From Rhodothermaceae bacterium Tc-Br11_B2g6_7 (GTDB lineage: Bacteria > Bacteroidota > Rhodothermia > Rhodothermales > Salinibacteraceae): a stretch of DNA of 64,000 bases. The first letter of the stretch is position 1. Every line of letters starts with the position of its first letter. Shown one piece after another: positions 4,281-6,758 of the stretch. The notes beneath the pieces were generated by a model. That model saw nothing but the letters and a program-made list of their open reading frames with translations, ran no database searches and was not told where the DNA came from. The position numbers were made by a program, and so were the translations under genes. The stretch is from NCBI GenBank assembly GCA_001564055.1, contig LKNB01000007.1, positions 19,668-83,667 of the forward strand. Direction: 5' to 3'.

Positions 4281-5801
4281 ATGAGCTCTGTCAAAGATCA
4301 TTGCGGTATCTTCGGAATCTTTAATGCCTCCGATGCCGCGCGTCGGGCCTACTACGGCTTGCACGCGCTGCAGCACCGCGGGCAGGAGTCGGCCGGCATC
4401 GTCACGTCCACCTTCGACGAGCAGCGTGGGCAACCCGTTATGCCCGTATACAAGGACTTCGGGCTTGTGCTGGATGTCTTCGACGACAATTCGCTGTTCG
4501 AGGAGCGCCTCATGGGCGACTCGGCGATTGGCCACACCCGCTACTCCACCAGCGGCTCGGCCGATAACCGCATGAACATCCAGCCGTTCGTGGTACACTA
4601 CCACGATGGCAACATCGCCCTGGCACATAACGGCAACCTGTCCAACGCCCGGGAAATCCGGAAGGCCTTTAGCGACCGAGGCACGCTCTTTCAGACCACC
4701 AGCGATAGCGAGCTGATCCTCCATCTCATCGCGCAGTCGCGGCGTGAGCAGCAGCTGGACCAGATCATCGACGCCCTCACGCAGATCGAAGGCGCATTCT
4801 CGCTTGTCCTCCTGACCGACGACCGGCTCATCGCGGTGCGCGACCCCAACGGCTTTCGTCCCCTCGCGCTTGGCCGCATCGATGATCCGCACCGCGAAGG
4901 CACCACCTATTGCGTCGCCAGCGAGACCTGTGCCTTTGACATACTGAACGCGGAGTACGTACGCGATGTAGCGCCTGGCGAAGTGCTTATCATCGACCGG
5001 GAAAGCGCCAAGACGGGTGACTTCACCAGCGTACAGCTCGCTCAGCGCCATGGGGTTAGCCAGTGCATCTTTGAGTACGTTTACTTTTCCCGCCCCGACT
5101 CCAAGATCTTCGGGGAGATGGTCGACAAGGTGCGACGGAAGATCGGCAAGCAGATGGCGCACGAGTCGCCTGTGCCTTCCGTCCCCGAAGGCGAGAAGAA
5201 GCCCATTGTAATCTCCGTGCCGGACTCGTCCAATACTGCAGCGCTCGGCTTCACCACGGAGTGCCAGAAGTTGGGCCACGAATGCCGCTACGAGATTGGC
5301 CTCATCCGTAATCACTATGTCGGTCGCACGTTCATCGCCCCCGGGCAAGACCGTCGCGAAATGAAGGTGCGCAGCAAGTATAACACCGTCGAAGGCGTGC
5401 TGCGCGACCGGACCGTCGTCGTCGTGGACGATTCCATCGTGCGGGGCACCACAGCACGGCAGCTTGTCCAGATGCTGCACGACGCCGGCGCGAAGGAAGT
5501 GCACCTGCGCATCGCATCGCCTGCGGTTATTTCTCCCTGCTTCTATGGGATGGACTTCCCCAGCACCGATGAGTTACTGGCCAATCAGTTTGACGACGTA
5601 GAGGAAATGACCAACTGGCTGGGCGTGGCATCGCTGGCGTATCTCTCCACTGACGGCCTAATGAAGGCGGTGCACGCCGCCAATGAGAGCGAGCGCGGAT
5701 ACTGCAATGCGTGCTTTACGGCCAACTATCCCGTTCCGGTGGAGATGGGCGTGAAGAAGGAAGAGAACGAATGGACGCAGTCCGCCAACGCGGGTCAGTA
5801 G
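4281..5801 (+). CDS. purF: Amidophosphoribosyltransferase
   Basis: Commits PRPP to purine synthesis: glutamine + PRPP gives phosphoribosylamine. N-terminal Ntn-type glutaminase with Cys8 after a short propeptide (MSSVKDHCGIFGI), so the mature enzyme should begin at that cysteine. C-terminal phosphoribosyltransferase domain with the PRPP loop VVVVDDSIVRGTT (residues ~378-391). Cys262, Cys420, Cys475 and Cys478 fall where the Bacillus-type enzyme holds its 4Fe-4S cluster (QCIFEY, SPCFYG, YCNAC), so this is the oxygen-sensitive iron-sulfur form. 506 residues is typical. The stop codon lies only two bases before the fluoride riboswitch, so readthrough from purF could feed the crcB genes. No other purine synthesis gene is adjacent. 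Confidence 0.97.
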   Translation: MSSVKDHCGIFGIFNASDAARRAYYGLHALQHRGQESAGIVTSTFDEQRGQPVMPVYKDFGLVLDVFDDNSLFEERLMGDSAIGHTRYSTSGSADNRMNIQPFVVHYHDGNIALAHNGNLSNAREIRKAFSDRGTLFQTTSDSELILHLIAQSRREQQLDQIIDALTQIEGAFSLVLLTDDRLIAVRDPNGFRPLALGRIDDPHREGTTYCVASETCAFDILNAEYVRDVAPGEVLIIDRESAKTGDFTSVQLAQRHGVSQCIFEYVYFSRPDSKIFGEMVDKVRRKIGKQMAHESPVPSVPEGEKKPIVISVPDSSNTAALGFTTECQKLGHECRYEIGLIRNHYVGRTFIAPGQDRREMKVRSKYNTVEGVLRDRTVVVVDDSIVRGTTARQLVQMLHDAGAKEVHLRIASPAVISPCFYGMDFPSTDELLANQFDDVEEMTNWLGVASLAYLSTDGLMKAVHAANESERGYCNACFTANYPVPVEMGVKKEENEWTQSANAGQ

Positions 5802-5803
5802 AC

Positions 5804-5888
5804 CGGGCGATGGAGTTCGCCTTCCCCACCGGGGATAAACCGCCACCATGGCTGATGACTCCTGTTCACAGACCTCAATGAACAGGAG
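5804..5888 (+). promoter_or_regulatory. Fluoride riboswitch (crcB motif) with RBS-masking hairpin
   Basis: The conserved crcB-motif blocks are all present in order: GGCGATGGAGTTCGCC (5806-5821), a CCCC/GGGG hairpin (5824-5834), AAACCGCC (5837-5844) and GGCTGATGACTCCT (5850-5863). Expected pairings can be drawn: GGCG/CGCC stem, GCC/GGC stem, and the fluoride-site pseudoknot GGAGT (5812-5816) with ACTCC (5858-5862). The same 3' strand can instead form a perfect 10-bp helix, CTCCTGTTCA (5859-5868) with TGAACAGGAG (5879-5888), which buries the AGGAG Shine-Dalgarno of the crcB gene at 5901. The two folds exclude each other, so fluoride binding should expose the ribosome site. Control is therefore predicted at translation; no terminator-like T run is present. 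Confidence 0.93.
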
Positions 5889-5900
5889 ACGTACGTACGC

Positions 5901-6272
5901 ATGGATTGGTTGTTGGTCATGCTGGGAAGCGCCCTTGGTGGCGTTGGGCGCTATGTGGTTTCTGCAGTAATGGTCCGGCTGTTCGGGCCCCAATTCCCGC
6001 TTGGCACCCTCCTCGTTAACCTATCGGGCGCTCTGGCTATTGGCGTGTATATGGGGACGCTGGCGCCAAATGCCGTCGCCGTCTTGCATCCGGCCCCACT
6101 GGTTGGCCTGACGTTCGGCGTACTGGGAGGCTACACAACCTTCTCCTCGTTCAGCCTCGAAACGCTCTACCTGATACGGGATGAGCGGTATCGCGCGGCG
6201 GCGGTGTATGTCGGGTTGTCGATACCCCTGTGCGTGGGTGCAGCGGGACTTGGGTGGTATGCTACCATCTGA
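5901..6272 (+). CDS. crcB: Fluoride ion channel subunit CrcB/Fluc (first copy)
   Basis: 123-residue, four-helix membrane protein of the Fluc/CrcB family, which exports toxic fluoride passively as a dual-topology dimer or a two-gene heterodimer. Family marks: GSALGGVGRYVVS near the N terminus, GTLLVNLSGALAIG (the conserved N in TM2), and GVLGGYTTFSSFSLE (the TTFSSF phenylalanine-box region). ATG 5901 follows an AGGAG at 5884-5888, one of the few Shine-Dalgarno sequences in this window, and that site is masked by the riboswitch hairpin. The second crcB starts 63 bases downstream, so the two probably make a heteromeric channel. Confidence 0.95.
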   Translation: MDWLLVMLGSALGGVGRYVVSAVMVRLFGPQFPLGTLLVNLSGALAIGVYMGTLAPNAVAVLHPAPLVGLTFGVLGGYTTFSSFSLETLYLIRDERYRAAAVYVGLSIPLCVGAAGLGWYATI

Positions 6273-6300
6273 TGCTTTTTACCACCTGATGCTTTTTACC
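6269..6300 (+). repeat. Two-copy 17-bp direct repeat between the crcB genes
   Basis: CTGATGCTTTTTACC occurs at 6269-6283 and again at 6286-6300, a 17-base period. The first copy contains the stop codon of the upstream crcB. Probably a small slippage duplication; no function can be assigned. Confidence 0.85.
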
Positions 6301-6335: not shown

Positions 6336-6758
6336 ATGCTTGAGGGAAAAGCCCTGCTCTACGTCGCGCTCGGAAGCGCCGCCGGTGGTGGGTTGCGCTA
6401 TGCCGTAGCCCTCTCCACCGTCACAACCTGGGGCTCAGCCTATCCCGTCGCCACGCTCTTCGTGAATGTGGTGGGCTCACTTGTCATCGGGTGCATAGCG
6501 GGATGGCTCCGCAGCAGCACCCGGCGACTGCGCTGGACGTCCGTTCATTTGCTGGGCATGACGGGGCTGTGTGGCGGATTTACCACGTTCGCGTTCTTCA
6601 GCTGGGATACCTGGGCTATGCTGGCCAGCGGCGCCTACCTGGCGGCACTGGCCTACGTGGGCCTCTCCGTTGTGCTGAGCCTGGTAGCCGTCTGGGCCGG
6701 TTTTACTGGATCCGCACTGCACTTCTTGCGGCGACGCTCCCGGCTGGCGGCTTCGTGA
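6336..6758 (+). CDS. crcB: Fluoride ion channel subunit CrcB/Fluc (second copy)
   Basis: 140-residue paralogue of the preceding CrcB with the same four-helix plan: ALGSAAGGGLRYAVA, the TM2 asparagine in ATLFVNVVGSLVIG, and GMTGLCGGFTTFAFFSWD in place of TTFSSFS. It carries a short basic C-terminal tail (LRRRSRLAAS) absent from the first copy. Unequal charge distribution in such pairs usually fixes opposite topologies so that the two proteins form one channel. No ribosome-binding sequence is seen upstream. Its stop abuts the stop of the convergent ggt gene with no intergenic base. Confidence 0.94.
   Translation: MLEGKALLYVALGSAAGGGLRYAVALSTVTTWGSAYPVATLFVNVVGSLVIGCIAGWLRSSTRRLRWTSVHLLGMTGLCGGFTTFAFFSWDTWAMLASGAYLAALAYVGLSVVLSLVAVWAGFTGSALHFLRRRSRLAAS

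Follow-up and report, generated by a model that had tools for sequence, protein, structure and literature searches.

The crcB gene that starts at position 5901 of the window, the 64,000-nucleotide stretch of a Rhodothermaceae genome analyzed here, is probably controlled by a translational ON switch that occludes the initiation region independently of a Shine–Dalgarno (SD) site. A fluoride riboswitch lies between purF and crcB, and its 3′ pseudoknot strand overlaps one arm of a hairpin just upstream of the crcB start codon (Table 1). Across Bacteroidota, the opposite arm of such hairpins follows the sequence of the aptamer strand. SD masking is the usual explanation for translational riboswitches, and a translational fluoride switch in a phylum whose ribosomes largely ignore SD sites raises the question of how such switches operate there.

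Table 1 Features of the purF–crcB region, in window coordinates.
Feature	Position	Strand	Basis and remarks
purF (amidophosphoribosyltransferase), upstream gene	4281..5801	+	TIGR01134, 462 bits (cut-off 350); stop TAG 5799–5801
Fluoride riboswitch aptamer, RF01734	5797..5871	+	55.0 bits (gathering 34), E 1.6e-12
Aptamer stem 5806–5809/5818–5821, loop with 5′ pseudoknot strand GGAGT 5812–5816	5806..5821	+	Rfam alignment, sequence
Insert relative to Rfam consensus, CCCC...GGGG, possible small extra stem	5823..5835	+	Rfam alignments, fold
3′ pseudoknot strand ACTCC	5858..5862	+	Sequence; ACUCC conserved in consensus
Hairpin 5′ arm CTCCTGTTCA	5859..5868	+	Overlaps pseudoknot at 5859–5862; helix test; −13.8 kcal/mol for 5859–5888
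Hairpin 3′ arm TGAACAGGAG	5879..5888	+	Sequence, helix test; AGGAG 5884–5888
12-nt spacer ACGTACGTACGC, arm to start codon	5889..5900	+	Without U-tract; without terminator-like site at the hairpin
crcB, first copy (predicted fluoride exporter)	5901..6272	+	TIGR00494, 81.8 bits (cut-off 80.45); PF02537, 82.7 bits
crcB, second copy	6336..6758	+	PF02537, 78 bits; TIGR00494, 67.2 bits (below cut-off 80.45)

A fluoride riboswitch lies directly behind purF

A search with Rfam model RF01734, proposed in a first-pass annotation that had recognized the blocks of a crcB motif, returned a match above the gathering threshold. This score supports the assignment of the element to the fluoride riboswitch class. 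By sequence, GGAGT and ACTCC can form the long-range pseudoknot of the family, and a fluoride-related gene, encoding CrcB, lies downstream. The aptamer of locus L004, from the same genus, has an insert positioned like that of the window.

The riboswitch begins at 5804, two bases past the purF stop codon, as the annotation had stated, and a scan of 5400–6000 for sigma-70-type promoters found none between purF and the hairpin. Transcription of purF likely reads into crcB, which may be internal to a purF operon. The ATG of the first crcB agrees with the N termini of its homologues. The second crcB has no SD 4-mer (AGGA, GGAG or GAGG) within 30 nt upstream of its start, and a 17-nt tandem repeat, TACCAYCTGATGCTTTT, spans the end of the first copy at 6263–6296, upstream of the second.

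A riboswitch is also found directly behind purF in L004. In another genome of the genus (G001), this place holds a decayed fluoride riboswitch (L241, about 1455–1520; 17.1 bits) that keeps its 5′ part and stops before the 3′ pseudoknot strand, with the hairpin and the usual crcB start missing; the adjoining crcB is 77% identical to that of the window.

The hairpin lies 57 nt past the purF stop with no promoter-like site in between, a position that would suit a structure belonging mainly to the 3′ end of the purF mRNA, acting as a stabilizer or processing site and not as a switch. We regard this explanation as very improbable, because four other loci (L002, L003, L005 and L006) keep the same arrangement before crcB without purF upstream, and because arm sequences throughout the phylum change in step with the aptamer strand, as described below.

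The pseudoknot strand is shared with a perfect hairpin that lacks a U-tract

CTCCTGTTCA and TGAACAGGAG are fully complementary and enclose a 10-nt loop (5869–5878). The 5′ arm has four of the five pseudoknot bases in common with ACTCC; by sequence, the hairpin and the pseudoknot are mutually exclusive pairings. The annotation had described this perfect 10-bp helix and its four shared bases correctly, in letters and coordinates alike. The full 10-nt complement appeared in none of 20,000 mononucleotide shuffles of 5869–5900, the helix reached p = 0.003 against 300 dinucleotide shuffles (the minimum of that test), and the fold of 121 nt gave z = −3.9. A chance origin of the hairpin was excluded on these grounds.

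No U-tract follows the hairpin, where ACGTACGTACGC stands, and a terminator scan of 5400–6000 reported no site at the hairpin, its two hits being weak and located elsewhere, so that an intrinsic terminator at this place was ruled out. A hairpin without a U-tract makes translational control likelier than termination. To this extent the translational switch proposed in the annotation stands; the part that does not is AGGAG as an ordinary SD site, to which we return below.

Transcriptional control could still operate if the hairpin halted RNA polymerase as an unusual U-tract-free terminator, or if Rho acted after blocked translation, and terminator-type fluoride riboswitches have the same overlap (PMC13273304 and PMC11077080, in excerpts). 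TTTT within 9 nt also accompanies 6 of the 41 significant arms of our Bacteroidota survey (below), including that of the family member L005. However, the spacer that follows the arm and the terminator scan at the hairpin speak against such control in the window, and 35 of the 41 arms, including those of five of the six family members, lack a U-tract. Transcriptional control is hence quite unlikely in our assessment.

The consequences of the shared strand were explored with ViennaRNA, a fold model in which pseudoknot, Mg2+ and fluoride are not scorable. The hairpin alone was given −13.8 kcal/mol and the 5-bp pseudoknot duplex alone −5.4 kcal/mol, both without ligand, Mg2+ or tertiary contacts. 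Folding of both states, as the annotation had proposed, released AGGAG in the model once the pseudoknot strands were withheld: its probability of being unpaired rose from 0.00 to about 0.80 and its opening energy fell from 11.3 to 1.6 kcal/mol. When the aptamer stems were imposed as well, withholding these strands left GGAG unpaired with a probability of 0.81 and raised the value for the AUG from 0.34 to 0.49; the opening energy of the region −20 to +15 fell from 20.6 to 10.9 kcal/mol, and that of −12 to +15 barely moved (8.4 to 7.8 kcal/mol). These numbers predict release mostly of the landing region upstream of the AUG and less of the AUG itself, an outcome compatible with SD masking as well as with occlusion of the landing region.

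SD sites are scarce at the starts of the window genome

The hairpin covers an SD-like sequence, AGGAG, within its 3′ arm. Under classical SD masking, the hairpin would hide AGGAG and fluoride would free it for pairing with 16S rRNA, and the modeled release of AGGAG agrees with such a switch. We surveyed starts with our own gene caller, which is blind to SD motifs, counting SD 4-mers at −16 to −4. In the window genome, they occurred at 57 of 926 starts (1.33 Mb), while the two control windows gave 32 and 63; starts are placed roughly by this caller (crcB was set at 5970, not 5901). The same caller found SD 4-mers at 34 of 76 starts of E. coli K-12 (controls 1 and 6), at 5 of 216 in the relative G014 (controls 6 and 15) and at 17 of 148 in G108 (controls 10 and 7). 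The low count in the window genome is consistent with the start-site logos of Salinibacter and Rhodothermus, which show no SD in the excerpted text of PMC3155529. Moreover, AGGAG ends 12 nt before the AUG and its AGGA begins at −17, whereas the SD 4-mers of the genome peak at −12 and −11.

Several observations favor masking. SD 4-mers precede 17 of the 65 operon-internal starts of the window genome (4 and 8 of 65 in the control windows) and 40 of the 861 other starts, a difference that may reflect restriction of SD sites to operons. The 16S tail reads ...CACCUCC in 6 of 22 related genomes, namely those in which the pattern matched; the 16S 3′ end of the window genome was not found, the match there being a 22-bit fragment only. 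We also scanned all bacteria in GTDB for fluoride aptamers with CTCCT...AGGAG and found at least 121 places in at least 118 stretches, counts that are distinct from prevalence as the pattern demands AGGAG. Among the matches listed, 56 had a U-tract and 65 did not; 46 of these 65 had an open reading frame (ORF) behind them, which in 27 of the 46 lay 4–10 nt from AGGAG. As a separate observation, rpsU in three relatives (L273 of G000, L272 of G002 and L270 of G014) carries a strong SD-like GGAGGGAT about 7 nt before a TTG start.

RF01734 exceeded its cut-off in 6 of the 100 near relatives searched, in 17 of 244 genomes at the level of the class and in 48 of 392 at that of the phylum, with overlap between these sets. 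All six riboswitch-carrying family members have an SD core in the arm, yet the arm ends 16–27 nt before the start in four of them. For comparison, we examined 14 crcB leaders from the family that have no riboswitch, comprising 12 from genomes without an RF01734 match and two second copies, and leaving out the crcB of G001 and both copies in G004 and in G011, whose starts were unplaced. None of the 14 had AGGAG, GGAGG or AAGGA within 30 nt, and an SD 4-mer occurred in one. The rarity of SD 4-mers, the distance to the AUG, the family spacing and these leaders, together with the SD-free arms described next, speak against the annotation's designation of AGGAG as the ribosome site of crcB. We consider SD masking unlikely, while treating it as the main rival to occlusion of the initiation region.

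The downstream arm follows the aptamer strand across Bacteroidota

Our survey of Bacteroidota took in 62 places above the RF01734 cut-off plus L018, the sole match included from below it. A start could be placed in 58 of these 63, and L010, L088, L097, L103 and L118 were dropped for want of a placeable start. Starts were chosen by hand from translations and are uncertain in L087, L094, L098 and L099. Pairing between the aptamer strand and a downstream arm exceeded that of dinucleotide shuffles at 41 of the 58 loci (p ≤ 0.05; about 3 expected), related loci not being independent; no significant arm was detected in the other 17. This count comes from a helix test with two shared pseudoknot bases, a setting picked after a first run with three shared bases had given 31 of 58, in the same direction, and had missed arms that share the last two. 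The significant arms were spread over 13 of the 18 family labels (the below-cut-off locus of f16 accounts for one label), and the 35 arms without a U-tract spanned 10 family labels.

In these 35 loci, distances between arm and start codon spanned −10 to +22, apart from a single locus at 50. In L074 and L111, both before CrcB, the arm itself contains the start codon, and in L101, L104, L105 and L106 it is flush with it. The arm of the Balneolales-like families f16 and f20 precedes the start by 1–6 nt, which is close to SD spacing. The genes tested behind these riboswitches encode CrcB (L074, L111 and L079) or ClC (L089, L101 and L105). Elsewhere, a fluoride aptamer in L022 (1383–1456) lies upstream of a Na/H exchanger gene (PF00999), and those of L094, L098 and L099 carry an arm of 11 bp and are followed by a 184-aa ORF; the one copy tested, in L094, had no Pfam match.

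The sequence of the arm depends on that of the aptamer. Where the aptamer strand is ACUCC, 14 of the 16 arms without a U-tract contain AGGAG, GGAGG or AAGGA, and the remaining two contain AGGA; where it is another sequence (ACGCC in 10, GCGCC in 7, GCGTC in 1 and ATGCC in 1), none of the 19 arms contains an SD 4-mer. The SD core is thus not kept across the phylum, and 19 of the 35 arms lack one. Since the SD core tracks the ACUCC strand, AGGAG is best read as the complement of that strand, and in the window it is probably this rather than an SD site. With the usual strand, ACUCC(U), an arm would read AGGAG regardless of any need for an SD site.

Within the aptamers, the two pseudoknot strands change together. 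GGAGT or GGGGT goes with ACTCC in 33 of the 58 loci, GGTGT with ACGCC or GCGCC in 20 and GGCAT with ATGCC in one; the rest are GGAAT/ACTCC (1), GGAGT/ACGCC (1) and two that were not read. Beyond the pseudoknot strand, arms formed on average 5.23 contiguous pairs with their own aptamer versus 2.35 with those of other families (1046 swaps). In a permutation test that leaves relatedness in, the observed sum was never reached in 5000 trials (p = 0.0002), and permutation within ACUCC types gave a mean of 38.3 and a maximum of 58 against 63 observed. In L013 and L015, the arms are some 80–90 nt apart and still paired over 10 and 9 pairs, their hairpin loops being enlarged by similar inserts with GTGTCACCCTGAAC...TTCAGCATGACAC-like inverted ends.

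The simplest account of these sequences is that the arm has been selected to pair with the 3′ strand of the aptamer near the start codon. On this account, we hold a switch that occludes the initiation region to be the most likely explanation for the window, ahead of SD masking and of transcriptional control.

A proposed model for SD-independent control of crcB

In the proposed switch, the 3′ pseudoknot strand would double as the base of the hairpin, which is predicted to cover the ribosome landing region just upstream of the crcB start codon. When fluoride is absent, the hairpin should outcompete the bare pseudoknot, as their predicted energies suggest, and initiation would be blocked. With fluoride and Mg2+, the pseudoknot would capture 5858–5862 at the cost of the outer four hairpin pairs (CUCC/GGAG), and initiation at crcB would rise, probably together with that at the second crcB through coupling or co-transcription. 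We infer both fluoride binding and the direction of the response from the sequence. In the SD-poor Flavobacterium johnsoniae, structure at −20 to +20 is described as tuning initiation (PMC6847099, in excerpts).

Counting against an SD-independent switch are the operon-internal SD 4-mers, GGAGGGAT at rpsU, the 17 survey loci without a significant arm, the arm spacing in f16 and f20 and the fold model, which frees mainly GGAG, as would suit SD masking. For the phylum as a whole, the balance is even on a broader proposal: Bacteroidota fluoride riboswitches would be start-site occluders whose pseudoknot strand does the blocking and whose arm changes with the aptamer instead of the ribosome; AGGAG in the window would be a by-product of this pairing, and some helices would hold the start codon itself. 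The natural series of ACUCC with AGGAG, ACGCC with ..CAGG, and helices that contain the start codon offers variants in which SD masking and occlusion of the initiation region can be told apart. The series calls for caution, too, as a platform that pairs with the invariant CUCCU of a fluoride aptamer resembles an SD site whether or not it is one.

Comparison with known systems

The annotation had presented the layout as unusual, on the ground that most studied examples use termination. This was overstated. Terminators overlapping the crcB motif were noted by Weinberg in 2010 (PMC2864571, in excerpts). In the excerpted text of Hertz 2026, 323 of 1901 fluoride riboswitches assayed in vitro were functional by termination, and the covariation model has a hairpin that overlaps the pseudoknot, with the pseudoknot and the platform stem as alternatives (PMC13273304). 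Some fluoride riboswitches are described as presumably translational (PMC8814607, in excerpts). As both the overlap and translational fluoride riboswitches are already published, the layout itself is not new. A Bacteroidota arm that follows the aptamer and not an SD site was not found in print in the open full-text literature, the scope of the search, with subscription papers outside it.

The element resembles the crcB motif of RF01734 in sequence, structure and downstream crcB (55 bits) and differs from it by the insert and its possible extra stem. In the terminator type of Bacillus cereus and Thermotoga petrophila, the 3′ pseudoknot strand forms the base of the platform hairpin, as here (excerpts of PMC11077080 and PMC13273304); the window element differs in having neither a U-tract nor a terminator-like site. 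Another parallel is the autoregulation of rpsU in Bacteroidota by SD-free ribosomes, where a regulated gene of an SD-poor lineage likewise carries an SD-like site, and the rpsU genes of G000, G002 and G014, with GGAGGGAT before TTG, resemble those described in the excerpts of PMC9976891. That system differs in that it has no aptamer and SD–16S pairing is itself the signal (same excerpts). In the window, the preferred reading gives that pairing no role.

Pseudomonas syringae and Burkholderia pseudomallei are hosts that use SD sites, and Baker 2012 is reportedly the original paper on their translational fluoride riboswitches. These riboswitches are non-terminating and translational, like the element in the window, to which they are likened by control mode alone, and they served as translational controls in Hertz 2026 (PMC13273304, in excerpts). 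The window differs from them in that its genome is SD-scarce and its arm is matched to the aptamer strand instead of the anti-SD sequence.
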